Notes under the pieces: generated by a model | What the model saw: only the letters and a program-made list of their open reading frames with translations | Database searches by the model: none | Told to the model about the DNA's origin: nothing | Position numbers and translations under genes: made by a program | Source of the DNA: Agrobacterium larrymoorei | GTDB taxonomy: Bacteria; Pseudomonadota; Alphaproteobacteria; Rhizobiales; Rhizobiaceae | Assembly: GCF_013322225.1 (NCBI RefSeq) | Contig: NZ_JAAMFB010000006.1 | Coordinates: forward strand, 62,001 to 126,000 | Direction of reading: 5' to 3' | DNA: 64,000 nt | Shown here: positions 38,121 through 42,908 of the stretch, piece after piece | Layout: every line of letters starts with the position of its first letter | Position numbering within the stretch: the first letter of the stretch is position 1

Positions 38121-38263
38121 GAAGGTGTGGGAAAAGGACTGTGAGCTTGCTGAAAGCAGTTCCCCTCTGCTGCCATTCCAGCGCAAGTCCACTGCTGCCC
38201 GGATGCGGTTGTTGGAAAACCCTGGGCAATACGAATTGATGGGGCGGCCAACAAACCCACTCC

Positions 38264-38339
38264 GTCATCCTCGCCCTTGAGGCGAGGATCCATGGCGGCA
38301 CCCTAGGGCGTGGATCCTCGGGTCAAGCCCGAGGATGAC
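38264..38339. repeat. Paired palindromic intergenic repeat
   Basis: Two 29-base hairpins, GTCATCCTCG...GAGGATCCA (38264-38292) and TGGATCCTCG...GAGGATGAC (38311-38339), are each self-complementary and are also inverted copies of each other across an 18-base spacer. The GTCATCCTCGGG-type arm is a common dispersed palindrome in alphaproteobacterial genomes. Confidence 0.8.
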
Positions 38340-38453
38340 CAAAGTTGGAGGGCTGTCGGTGGACGAAAGCCGCCGGTCCAAATCTCATCATGTCATAAGC
38401 CAAGCAAAAGCTTGGCGGAGTGTTTTGGACACGATGTCAACGACAAAATGATT

Positions 38454-38487
38454 GATAAAAAGGAAAAGGGTCGCTTGCGCGACCCTT
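38454..38487 (-). terminator. Terminator of the small ORF unit
   Basis: Read on the minus strand, AAGGGTCGC and GCGACCCTT pair over 9 bases around a 4-base loop, followed by TTCCTTTTTATC. The T-rich side faces away from the small ORF, as a terminator for it should. Confidence 0.8.
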
Positions 38488-38514
38488 CCATGAGTTTGGT
38501 CATTGTTTCAGACC

Positions 38515-38536
38515 CGAAACGTTTAGCAACGTTTCG
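38515..38536 (-). promoter_or_regulatory. Perfect 9-bp hairpin after the small ORF
   Basis: CGAAACGTT and AACGTTTCG pair perfectly around GCTA (minus strand), 14 bases after the small ORF stop. A CCTTCCCTTC stretch at 38536-38545, just before it, could pair with the small ORF's ribosome site. Confidence 0.6.
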
Positions 38537-38549
38537 AAGGGAAGGCGGA

Positions 38550-38624
38550 TCAGGCCGAGGGCTGCCTCGTCAAAATCAAATCCTTTCCATTGCCTGCTAC
38601 GAAGACCGAAATCTCACTAGACAT
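38550..38624 (-). CDS. Candidate 24-residue small ORF with extreme Shine-Dalgarno
   Basis: Minus-strand ATG at 38624 opens 24 codons (begins MSSEISVFVAGN, ends LTRQPSA) and a TGA. The ribosome site AAAGGAAGGTGATCC (38626-38640) matches the 16S tail complement AAGGAGGTGATCC at nearly every position. Downstream come a possible anti-Shine-Dalgarno, a perfect hairpin and a terminator, so the whole looks like a transcript of about 200 bases. Options are a leader peptide, a dual-function small RNA, or a small protein. I do not recognise the peptide. It follows the TumA-like antitoxin gene by 77 bases and might be read through from it. Confidence 0.5.
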   Translation of the reverse strand: MSSEISVFVAGNGKDLILTRQPSA

Positions 38625-38701
38625 TGGATCACCTTCCTTTCACTACGTTGAACATAAGAAGAAGGTAATACGATTCGCGGGGATTGCAAGGGGTGACGAA
38701 T

Positions 38702-39067
38702 TCAAGCGGCCTTTTCAGCAGTCACATCGAACTCGAAATGAATTTGATCGTAAGGAAATTCCACGCCCTTCTCATGCCGGTCGATAATCCCGGAATTGAT
38801 CAGCGTTGTAATGTCCCGATGCACCGCCTGAACATCGCGTTCAACGCGACGCGCCACTTCGCGGATGGAAAGCGCCCCTTGCCCGACCAGTGCTTTGACG
38901 ATCGCCAGTCTTAGCGGCGCAAGAATGCGGTGGAGGTCGTCGTAGTTCGAAAACTCGATCGAAGGCTTGGCTTCTAATGCCTTTCCAGACATTGCGCGTT
39001 GTCCTGCCTTCGCAAAACGAGCCTTCATGTCGTCCATTGTACTGAGCCGCACTGTCAATGTCGTCAT
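38702..39067 (-). CDS. TumA-like winged-helix antitoxin (HVO_A0114 family)
   Basis: 121 residues. The C-terminal half is a winged helix-turn-helix: LRLAIVKALVGQGALSIREVARRVERDVQAVHRDITTLINSGII, then a wing with GVEFPYDQIHFEFDV. The N-terminal TLTVRLSTMDDMKARFAKAG part is the probable dimer or toxin-contact region. Proteins of this family are encoded next to DUF6516/TumE toxins, as here. The start ATG overlaps the toxin stop (ATGA). Likely represses the pair through the inverted repeat upstream of the toxin. Confidence 0.8.
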   Translation of the reverse strand: MTTLTVRLSTMDDMKARFAKAGQRAMSGKALEAKPSIEFSNYDDLHRILAPLRLAIVKALVGQGALSIREVARRVERDVQAVHRDITTLINSGIIDRHEKGVEFPYDQIHFEFDVTAEKAA

Positions 39068-39345
39068 TTCAGCATCCTTTCCATGTCGGCTTCAAACGCC
39101 TCAAAAAGCTCTTCCAAACCCAGAAACACGATGGATTCCTCTTGTCCATCAATATGGCGATGGTCGCCCTTGCCACGTTCGTTATCGTATCGAAGCACGC
39201 ACTCGCCGTTGATCACTAACGCCAGCCGATACTTGAATGGATGTCCACTACCAGGGACAGGTTCCGGCAAATGCCAAAGTACAACCTCGAAAAAGGCCGC
39301 TTCACTGATGACTTTGCGCGTTTTTTCGATAAGAACGGCCTTCAT
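39064..39345 (-). CDS. TumE-family (DUF6516) toxin
   Basis: 93 residues from the ATG at 39345 (MKAVLIEKTRKVISEAAFFEVVLW). The central YRLALVINGECVLRYDNERGKGDHRHI with conserved acidic and His residues, then FLGLEELFEAFEADMERML, matches the DUF6516/TumE pattern. An upstream in-frame start at 39390 exists, but it lies inside the operator palindrome. It overlaps the antitoxin start by four bases, toxin first. Predicted to be a growth-inhibiting toxin; the molecular target is not evident. Confidence 0.75.
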   Translation of the reverse strand: MKAVLIEKTRKVISEAAFFEVVLWHLPEPVPGSGHPFKYRLALVINGECVLRYDNERGKGDHRHIDGQEESIVFLGLEELFEAFEADMERMLK

Positions 39346-39363
39346 GTTGTCAACGATGACAAC
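39346..39363. promoter_or_regulatory. Operator palindrome of the TumE/TumA pair
   Basis: GTTGTCA-ACGA-TGACAAC, perfect 7-base arms directly against the toxin start codon, where a winged-helix antitoxin dimer would autoregulate. Confidence 0.65.
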
Positions 39364-39367
39364 ATTG

Positions 39368-39397
39368 GCGTCTGTTGTCAATGAAAACAACAGACGC
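39368..39397. repeat. 11-bp inverted repeat upstream of the TumE gene
   Basis: GCGTCTGTTGT and ACAACAGACGC are perfect over 11 bases with an 8-base loop. It lies just after the quinone oxidoreductase stop on the minus strand, so it could be its terminator (no good T run) or a second operator sharing the TTGTC half-site. Confidence 0.55.
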
Positions 39398-41105: not shown

Positions 41106-42908
41106 TCACTCCTTCTCGCCGTAACTACGAATAATCAGCCCGGAATCGCTTTCCTTCGCAGCTTTCTTGATGCAGGCAATTTCCGAGCCGATCTTTTCCG
41201 GAGCTCCGATGATCAGGCCCTTCGGCAGCTTCAGCACGCCGATGGAGCAGCGCAGCAACGCAAAATCGCGCTCGTTACCGAAGCGGTCATGTCCTTTGAT
41301 CTGGCCCGCAGCGCGATCCTCGTCGGAGTAGAGTTCAACTACATCGTCATGGAAATCGCTCAGCAGACGCTCAAGAATTTCGGTCAGCTCGTCCTTCGTC
41401 CAGTCACGCACGCCTATGAAGAAATCATCGCCGCCGATGTGGCCGAGGAAGCAGCCGCCTGCGAAGAAATAGCGTCGCATGAGTGCCGAAAACAGGCTGA
41501 TGGCATGGTCGCCAATGTGGAAGCCGTATTTGTCGTTGAACGGCTTGAAGTTATCGAAATCGCAGTAGCAGAAGAAACGGCTTTCATCATCGTCGCCACA
41601 GGCGTCCTCGATAAAACCGCTTATCGCACGGTTGCCGGGAAGGGCGGTGAGCGGGTTTTGCTCCTGCGCCAGCTTCAGCTGCTTCTCGTTGATGACCTTG
41701 ATGAGCGAAGCGGCGGAGACCACGCCGACATAGCGCATGTTCTCGGTCAGGATCACGCAGGCGCTGCCGCCCATATTGGCGAAGATGTTCATCAACTGAT
41801 CCGCATCGGCATCGAGGCCGACGATGGGCGCGCCATCCACGAAGTGCGAAATCGTTCGCTCATAGACCTTGTTTTTCAGCAGATCGCGCCCGAACGGTTG
41901 ATAGATATATTCCTTGAGATGATATTCGTTGATGACGCCACGCGGCTCACCATTGGCGTTCAGAACGGGGAAGAACGCCTGAGAGGGATTGCGACGGAAC
42001 AGCTCGAACACGCTGTCGATGCTGTCGTTTTCGAAAACGGTCGGTAGCCGCTCGATCTGGCGACGGATAAGGATTTCGTCCAGCGTCTGGCTGTTGCGGC
42101 GCGCTTCGCCCAGATGCTGAAGGTGCGGAAAGGCGCCTTGCAATTCGCTGATGAAGGTGGTGGGGCGTGAAATGAACCAGCCCTGTACCAGATCGACACC
42201 ATACTCGCGGCAGGCCAGAAATTCCGCTTCCGTCTCGATGCCCTCGGCAATCACCCGCACGCCAAGCACATGCGCAATGTTGACGATGTTCTTGACCATG
42301 TGTCGCTTGCGCGGATTTCGATCCACGCCTTCGATGAAGTAGCGGTCGATCTTCAGATAGTCGACCGGAAAATCGCACAGCAGCTTCATTTCGCCATGAC
42401 CAACGCCGAAGTCGTCAATGGCGAGCTTGAAGCCTTCGCGGCGCATACGTGTGATCAGGGCGCTGAACTCCGGCACGCTTGTATTATCGAAGCGTTCCGA
42501 AAGCTCGAAGCATATGGAGGAGGGCGGTATCGAGGCCTTTGCCAGATGCTCCAGCAAGGTATCCAGAATGGCGTCGCCATGGCGAATGAGCCGGACATCG
42601 AGATTGAGGAACAGCGTGGCCGATGAAAATTCAGCTAAGGTGGAGAACTTGGCCAGAGCCCGCCCTGCCAGCATCTGCTCCAGCGAAACCAACTGGCCAT
42701 CGGCTTCGACGTGGTCGAGAAGTTCCAGCGGGTTATCGAAGCCGATGCGGTCGTAGCCGCGCATCAGGGATTCGTAACCGAATATTGTTCCGGTGGTCGC
42801 CTCGACAATGGGCTGAAAAGCAGTCTCCAGAACGAGTTTCGCCATGGAAATCATCTGACCGTTTGCGAACCGCCTGATCGCCTCGGGGTCGACCGCCGTG
42901 GACTGCAT
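41106..42908 (-). CDS. EAL-CBS-GGDEF cytoplasmic protein, probable c-di-GMP phosphodiesterase
   Basis: 600 residues with GGAG 7 bases before the start. The EAL domain comes first (about 25-265): GYESLMRGYDR, ELSERFDN, AIDDFGVGHGEMKLL, LKIDRYF and AEGIETEAEF keep the metal and base residues. Two CBS repeats follow (about 285-400), then a GGDEF domain whose motif reads HIGGDDFFIG (about 494), with Asp in place of the Glu. That suggests a hydrolase controlled by nucleotide binding to CBS or to the degenerate GGDEF. No membrane segment. A perfect 13-bp hairpin lies in its leader. Confidence 0.92.
   Translation of the reverse strand: MQSTAVDPEAIRRFANGQMISMAKLVLETAFQPIVEATTGTIFGYESLMRGYDRIGFDNPLELLDHVEADGQLVSLEQMLAGRALAKFSTLAEFSSATLFLNLDVRLIRHGDAILDTLLEHLAKASIPPSSICFELSERFDNTSVPEFSALITRMRREGFKLAIDDFGVGHGEMKLLCDFPVDYLKIDRYFIEGVDRNPRKRHMVKNIVNIAHVLGVRVIAEGIETEAEFLACREYGVDLVQGWFISRPTTFISELQGAFPHLQHLGEARRNSQTLDEILIRRQIERLPTVFENDSIDSVFELFRRNPSQAFFPVLNANGEPRGVINEYHLKEYIYQPFGRDLLKNKVYERTISHFVDGAPIVGLDADADQLMNIFANMGGSACVILTENMRYVGVVSAASLIKVINEKQLKLAQEQNPLTALPGNRAISGFIEDACGDDDESRFFCYCDFDNFKPFNDKYGFHIGDHAISLFSALMRRYFFAGGCFLGHIGGDDFFIGVRDWTKDELTEILERLLSDFHDDVVELYSDEDRAAGQIKGHDRFGNERDFALLRCSIGVLKLPKGLIIGAPEKIGSEIACIKKAAKESDSGLIIRSYGEKE

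Follow-up and report, generated by a model that had tools for sequence, protein, structure and literature searches.

On the minus strand of the window (the whole 64-kb stretch of DNA analysed here), we identified a predicted small RNA containing a short ORF of about 24 codons. To judge from comparison of homologous sequences, the start-to-stop length of this ORF is strongly selected, but the encoded peptide is hardly conserved, and this selection on ORF length with a near-neutral peptide appears to be new. The locus stands an even chance of being a translation-gated small regulatory RNA, distantly related to the Rfam family CC2171.

Layout, surroundings and distribution of the small RNA

The features of the small RNA are collected in Table 1. 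An earlier note on this DNA had placed a small ORF, its ribosome site, a hairpin and a terminator on the minus strand, and all of them, including the perfect 9-bp hairpin and the T-tailed terminator, were found where it had put them. Comparative evidence indicates that the unit is more than a chance arrangement, because every genome sampled from the genus (37/37) has a homolog. The region also folds more stably than shuffled sequences (z -4.9 and -4.1, with 0/200 shuffles as stable in each comparison). Terminator-like sites number two on both strands of 1 kb, one of them on the minus strand, vs 1.2 expected from shuffles; since such a site by itself is about what shuffling yields, the support for the terminator is its conservation. 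Upstream, a T/G-rich peak occurs at -66..-63 across 107 members, and no sigma-70 consensus was found in the conserved block listed in Table 1.

Table 1. Features of the predicted small RNA and of its upstream region.
Feature	Position	Strand	Remarks
Small RNA, ~190 nt	38458..38650	(-)	predicted transcript; ends inferred from homologs, the Rfam CC2171 alignment and the terminator
Conserved block, possible promoter	38655..38690	(-)	lies 5' of the small RNA; genus-wide conservation judged by eye (20 loci)
Extended Shine-Dalgarno (SD) GAAAGGAAGGTGATCCA	38625..38641	(-)	16S 3' tail complement carrying one additional A
24-codon ORF and stop, encoding MSSEISVFVAGNGKDLILTRQPSA	38550..38624	(-)	length conserved, peptide hardly
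P1 5' arm	38604..38618	(-)	about codons 3-7 of the ORF; long-range helix, covariation
P1 3' arm	38489..38501	(-)	directly before the terminator stem, touching it; covariation
P2 hairpin CGAGG-CAGC-CCUCG	38556..38569	(-)	ends one codon before the stop
Intramolecular anti-SD CGCCUUCC	38540..38547	(-)	just 3' of the stop codon
P3, perfect 9-bp hairpin	38515..38536	(-)	varies between relatives
Intrinsic terminator stem-loop, then T-rich tail	38464..38489	(-)	kept in relatives

The gene that follows the small RNA, which by its looks we take to be cysA, lies on the other strand and is convergent, and no long same-strand gene is found closely downstream within the window. Outside the genus the neighbours are dissimilar and occur in either orientation (15 loci inspected, gene names compared by eye). 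The unit thus stands alone, as the earlier note had it. Of the three readings that the note offered, a dual-function small RNA comes closest, and the other two, an attenuator and a leader peptide, are unsupported, as the gene that follows is convergent and the neighbours differ between the families examined. The presence of an ORF, alternative pairings and a terminator does recall an attenuator or leader of a downstream gene; this reading is nevertheless very improbable, given the convergent cysA-like gene, the lack of a close long gene on the same strand, the dissimilar neighbours among the 15 loci and the differing peptides.

Several other elements lie nearby. Directly upstream, genes for an HVO_A0114-type antitoxin and a TumE toxin (38705-39390, assigned by Pfam) form a pair that is apparently an insertion relative to some same-genus genomes. 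At locus L016, for instance, 95 nt separate the start codon from the end of a quinone-oxidoreductase-like gene, and the toxin-antitoxin pair is therefore not there. The interval that separates the small RNA from the cysA-like gene contains palindromic, GC-rich repeats (gaggatcc ... ggatcctcgggtcaagcccgaggat; 38256-38341), and a terminator-like hairpin on the plus strand (38399-38416), perhaps serving the cysA-like gene, faces the terminator of the small RNA. A 600-aa ORF in the neighbourhood of the small RNA (41106-42908) looks, by eye, similar to the GGDEF-domain protein annotated beside the RNA in S. meliloti (L175, 57-1856), and this may reflect microsynteny shared with S. meliloti.

Searches with a 251-nt query matched every sampled genome of the genus, with one copy each, and through a short core 4/24 genomes of other families; the four matches have the same 5' element, an ORF of 24-30 codons and a terminator-like end. 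A DNA pattern for the 5' element matched 32/385 genomes of the class and gave at least 120 matches in a named collection, where, among the matches listed, one title is outside the alphaproteobacteria by name and some MAGs are labelled just Proteobacteria. The title in question names a Ramlibacter (betaproteobacterium) MAG (member L126), for which mis-binning is likelier than transfer. The covariance model R1, built from 64 members (alignment A2, 64 of 75 prepared references), detected the RNA at E 0.01 in 117/151 genomes of the family, three of these (G504, G512 and G528) by the 3' part only, and in 124/385 genomes of the class, the weaker ones often matched just by the 3' part. At E 1e-5, 95/398 genomes of a phylum sample were matched, and all 95 belong to the same class. 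Since members are related, counts are not independent and are inflated, so that the count of one member per family given below is the fairest. L048 (the same locus as L001), L226 and L228 (both with the site missed by anchoring) were left out of the counts, and L342, L346, L352 and L353, which have no start codon at the first anchor, were re-anchored before counting.

The ribosome site stands out in the window. At 0 mismatches, GAAAGGANGGTGATCCA is found once in the 64 kb, in GAAAGGAAGGTGATCCA. Of the 5,820 ATG, GTG and TTG codons in the window, the one served by this site has the strongest 16S-tail duplex (-25.9 kcal/mol); the second-best (-19.6 kcal/mol) also belongs to this site, and the best independent codon reaches -18.7. 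These energies refer to the S. meliloti 16S 3' sequence in the oligonucleotide table of PMC6943124 and not to the tail of the host, which was found neither in this draft assembly nor in five same-genus genomes, where rRNA may be missing. The description of the site as a near-complement of the 16S end, stronger than any other around, is borne out as to rank, but the match is not exact: the clade of the window has one extra A relative to the 16S complement (GGAAGG for GGAGG). AAGGAN{0,1}GGTGAT occurs seven times in the whole assembly, and the copy in the small RNA alone continues into GATCCA-ATG. SD conservation at -12..+4 arises by construction in pattern-found sets and is partly built in for the model-found set; GAAA at -16..-13, which falls outside the search pattern for most members, is kept in 98, 97, 106 and 104 of 107 members, resulting in a 15-nt complement of the 16S tail. 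Extension of SD pairing toward the start codon resembles the start-proximal SDs of S. aureus, which the accessible text of PMC13009471 presents as a general initiation feature of that species; here, extension concerns one RNA family in another phylum.

Such a site could also mean that the RNA is a decoy that titrates small subunits through the 16S tail, the short ORF just recycling them. The conserved GAAA with its 15-nt tail complement and the best 16S-tail match in the window agree with this. We nevertheless hold a decoy to be improbable, as it needs neither a fixed ORF length nor P1 and P2, and the clade of the window has weakened the match by one base (-25.9 vs -29.7 kcal/mol without the change) in favour of self-pairing.

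The reading frame and its peptide

Among 107 dereplicated pattern-found members, the frame-0 stop falls at 20-27 codons in 96, vs 7/105 and 9/105 in the other frames. Members found with the model behave alike: 135/145 have ORFs of 18-27 codons, against 16/137 and 12/143 in the other frames. When the first locus of each family was taken (70 loci in 40 families), 36/40 families fell in the same range, and the remaining four have ORFs of 30-36 codons. The other frames reached this range in 6/40 and 3/40 families, and dinucleotide shuffles did so in 14.5%. All three start codons (ATG 108, GTG 31 and TTG 6 among the 145 model-found members) and all three stop codons (TGA 84, TAA 38 and TAG 23) are used, so that what has been preserved is a reading frame rather than a fixed RNA word. 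The earlier note would have abandoned the unit if neither the frame nor the hairpins were conserved in relatives; examined for conservation, the unit withstood this objection. A plain non-coding sRNA with a chance ORF, which might be proposed as Rfam lists the relatives as sRNA CC2171, is scarcely credible, being contradicted by the frame and length statistics and by probable Ribo-seq evidence in S. meliloti (PMC10117765, available text).

The peptide behaves differently from the frame. Over 115 independent pairs drawn from 316 ORFs, the whole-ORF pN/pS is 0.83 (0.75-0.90), vs 0.95 and 0.88 in the wrong frames, and the middle part of the ORF gives 0.88. Substitutions are spread over the three codon positions (461/521/480), and evenly so beyond the first seven codons (166/177/162, with pN/pS 0.91). 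The bias toward synonymous change that the earlier note had proposed to look for is thus missing, as codon position 3 has no excess of change, and the frame seems to be conserved but the peptide hardly. Purifying selection on the peptide appears to be little (pN/pS 0.8-0.9); a weak constraint is possible, as the frame-0 interval lies below 1. Within the ORF, 39/45 indels at higher identity are not multiples of three, the net frame being nearly forced by the aligned stops, and the indel comparison at low identity is noisy. Peptides of different families are unlike one another. MS[SN]...QPS is common to many Rhizobiaceae members, and the conserved N terminus overlaps P1 and QPS overlaps P2. Preservation of length with hardly any preservation of the peptide suggests that the passage of the ribosome matters, and not its product.

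A member of the family has probably been described as a protein. The peptide predicted from L175, the S. meliloti ortholog, has 23 aa and a computed pI of 4.18 (3.95 with another pK set), and SEP1 of S. meliloti 2011 (Hadjeras et al. 2023, PMC10117765) is, in the available text, a protein of 23 aa and pI 4.18 conserved in Rhizobiaceae. The two are probably the same, an identity that rests on equal length and pI. According to the same text, SEP1 has the highest translation efficiency (TE) of 54 non-annotated sORFs and is represented by one peptide spectrum, below the authors' threshold; tagged SEP1, expressed from a foreign promoter and preceded by 15 nt of native sequence, gave a Western-blot signal with aberrant migration and an extra band that the authors deemed non-specific. 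SEP1 and the family described here share a length under 30 aa, conservation in Rhizobiaceae and very high TE. They differ in treatment: SEP1 figures in PMC10117765 as a small protein, and the available text takes up neither an RNA family nor the class-wide occurrence of the ORF nor the near-neutrality of its peptide.

The locus could accordingly be a small mRNA for a functional microprotein like SEP1, with an RNA structure that only regulates translation or stability. Strong conservation of the ORF as an ORF speaks for such a protein, as do the translated, blot-positive and Rhizobiaceae-wide SEP1 (PMC10117765, available text), the shared MS[SN]...QPS, the predominance of one frame in P2 (see below) and a whole-ORF pN/pS interval of 0.75-0.90. 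We nevertheless regard it as unlikely, because pN/pS is about equal to that of wrong frames, position 3 lacks an excess, the conserved N terminus and QPS coincide with P1 and P2, the P2 loop occurs in all three frames and the families have dissimilar peptides.

Four loci with the same 5' element (L026, L071, L083 and L148) have longer ORFs of 56, 59, 57 and 58 codons with a signal-peptide-like start; L071, L083 and L148 are Azospirillum by title, and ORFs and starts were judged by eye. In these, the ORF has possibly turned into a real secreted small protein.

Pairings of the start region and of the stop region

RNAalifold on a mixed alignment returned the terminator and two trivial pairs only; P1 was subsequently tested by named pairs and partner swapping. 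In 90 dereplicated pattern-found members, native P1 partners pair at -12.0 kcal/mol vs -8.9 for swapped partners, and 0/5,000 permutations were as good; members without a detected terminator were omitted from this sample (138/175 had one). In alignment A2, each of the seven P1a pairs (7/7) shows two-sided changes, with 85.5% of cells pairing; P1b is weaker, with 63.5%. Sliding the partner by 1-3 columns lowers pairing over the whole named structure from 83.9% to 33-60%. By these measures, a covarying long-range helix, P1, ties the start region to the terminator.

P2, a hairpin with a CARY loop, is present in 110/257 dereplicated members, including the window copy, and absent from 147/257. The motif was wide enough to admit the GAGGCAGCC form of the window. 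The arms of P2 (95 distinct arm pairs, including the type of the window) co-vary, with 6.77 of 8 positions paired vs 5.29 when permuted, a value reached in 0/5,000 permutations, without the minimum of 4 bp that was applied to hairpins in the frame test. The latter, in which the search window was fixed to the start codon, revealed that the loop is read in frames 0, 1 and 2 in 93, 3 and 14 of the 110 members. This skew to one frame may reflect kinship or a trace of peptide constraint. The ORF stop lies -6 to +32 nt from the P2 loop in 110/110 members, and within -3 to +30 nt in 104, vs 36/220 for stops of the other frames. In L292, L299, L301, L308 and L313, the motif is in another frame, and 21-codon ORFs ending in SSL stop inside the 3' arm of the hairpin. 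Even members that read P2 in other frames end their ORF at the hairpin. This placing of the stop is our chief argument that selection acts on the end point of the ribosome and not on the peptide.

Conservation of the CARY loop in these 110/257 members also fits a trans-acting base-pairing sRNA in which translation only stabilises or destabilises the RNA, as in other dual-function sRNAs, and the same can be said of its stand-alone position, its own terminator and the lack of conserved neighbours between the families examined. Taken alone, this reading leaves the position of the stop beside P2 unexplained, and we consider it rather unlikely.

The third pairing involves CCTTCCCTTC (38545-38536), 5-14 nt 3' of the stop codon. 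In the single-sequence MFE fold from 38650, the SD GGAAGGUG (38637-38630) pairs with CGCCUUCC (38547-38540) over 8 bp, and the full P1 is absent; with more 5' sequence, the fold shows P1 instead. SD:anti-SD crosses P1, and the two would therefore compete or form a pseudoknot. Among GGAAGG members of the Rhizobiaceae type, 20/21 have CCTTCC a few bases at most beyond the stop, and their post-stop regions pair better with GGAAGG (-15.5) than with GGAGG (-11.4), whereas those of 80 GGAGG members show no such pairing (-8.0 and -8.4). Two related GGAGG-type members carry CCTCCT or CCTCC post-stop. L194, with the SD GGATGG, has no matching CCATCC after its stop, and in 97 members of other types SD-to-post-stop pairing is hardly above shuffles (mean z -0.29). 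On this evidence, the pairing appears to be real in the clade of the window, where it changes together with the SD, and is not a feature of the class. The anti-SD that the earlier note had proposed thus exists and co-varies in this clade, but it sits after the stop and not near the start region.

Relatives and possible mode of action

An Rfam scan of the window yielded only two tRNAs above cut-off. CC2171 (RF01867), typed by Rfam as an sRNA gene (Caulobacter), matches 38467-38649 over model positions 1-159 with 27.6 bits (E 5e-4), against a gathering cut-off of 75, which makes the window copy a distant relative of CC2171 and not a member by the rule of Rfam. The cut-off was passed by 6/20 small RNA loci scanned, and in a laxer scan seven other loci (7/7) scored 34-47 bits, including S. 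meliloti L175 (34.0) and L076 (36.4). The CC2171 architecture, i.e., a 16S-complementary 5' element (GAAAGGAGGUGAUCCA[AG]UGUCU), a helix closing the start region onto the sequence before the terminator, and the terminator, is found in the window copy, and R1 detects both types. GGAAGG, the anti-SD and the CARY-loop P2 of the window copy were, in contrast, not seen in CC2171-type members. In the accessible text of the RNA literature naming CC2171, we found neither mention of an ORF nor a described function, and a class-wide description of the ORF was not found in searches of largely open-access literature.

Other candidates fared less well. BjrC68 scores 26.9 of 39 bits and covers just the 3' end (38458-38511). 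Agrobacterium PmaR is an unlikely identity, because its accessible description restricts it to Agrobacterium and one Rhizobium strain. No match by position was established with the S. meliloti sRNA families in the accessible part of PMC3927594.

Selection on frame and length indicates that the ORF is translated, as expected of a dual-function sRNA, and direct translation data concern only the probable S. meliloti ortholog, in the available text cited above. Like rnTrpL/peTrpL, Spot 42 and SgrS, the RNA combines a small RNA with a translated short ORF. In those systems, the peptide or its codons matter; unlike them, the family of the window lets the peptide vary almost freely and keeps the span of the ORF.

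Gating by translation is favoured by the selected length, the near-neutral peptide, the stop beside P2, the covarying helices P1 and P2, the co-change of anti-SD and SD, and the translation of probable SEP1. Weighing against it are the restriction of the anti-SD to one clade, the 147/257 members without a CARY-loop P2, the skew of P2 to one frame, the MFE fold from 38650 that lacks the full P1, and the longer ORFs of four families and of the Azospirillum loci. If the RNA is translation-gated, the strong SD would seize a 30S subunit even though P1 can close the start region, and P1 would open as the ribosome initiates. Judging by the size of a ribosome footprint, termination at 38552-38550 would place P2, the stop and the anti-SD under a single ribosome (about 38570-38540), so that the SD would stay free for the next round of translation. 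Should initiation fail, P1, P2 and SD:anti-SD would re-form, and the RNA would close. Because translation would open the RNA and its lack would close it, the shape of the RNA would change with the state of translation. The regulatory output would be carried by exposed strands, such as the P2 loop and the P1 3' arm, and the peptide would be a by-product; an ORF of ~24 codons is too short for its peptide to leave the exit tunnel. More tentatively, and with somewhat less than even confidence, we propose that the family is a class-wide RNA device reporting the state of translation, in which the termination site beside P2 (and, in one clade, the anti-SD) sets the fold and the activity on other RNAs.

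The analysis unites a curated sRNA (CC2171) with what is probably an orphan 'small protein' (SEP1) in a single old RNA, and it cautions against taking the conservation and good translation of an sORF as proof of a functional protein. If the proposed reading is true, many alphaproteobacteria, including plant symbionts and Caulobacter, would carry a dedicated translation-sensing RNA.
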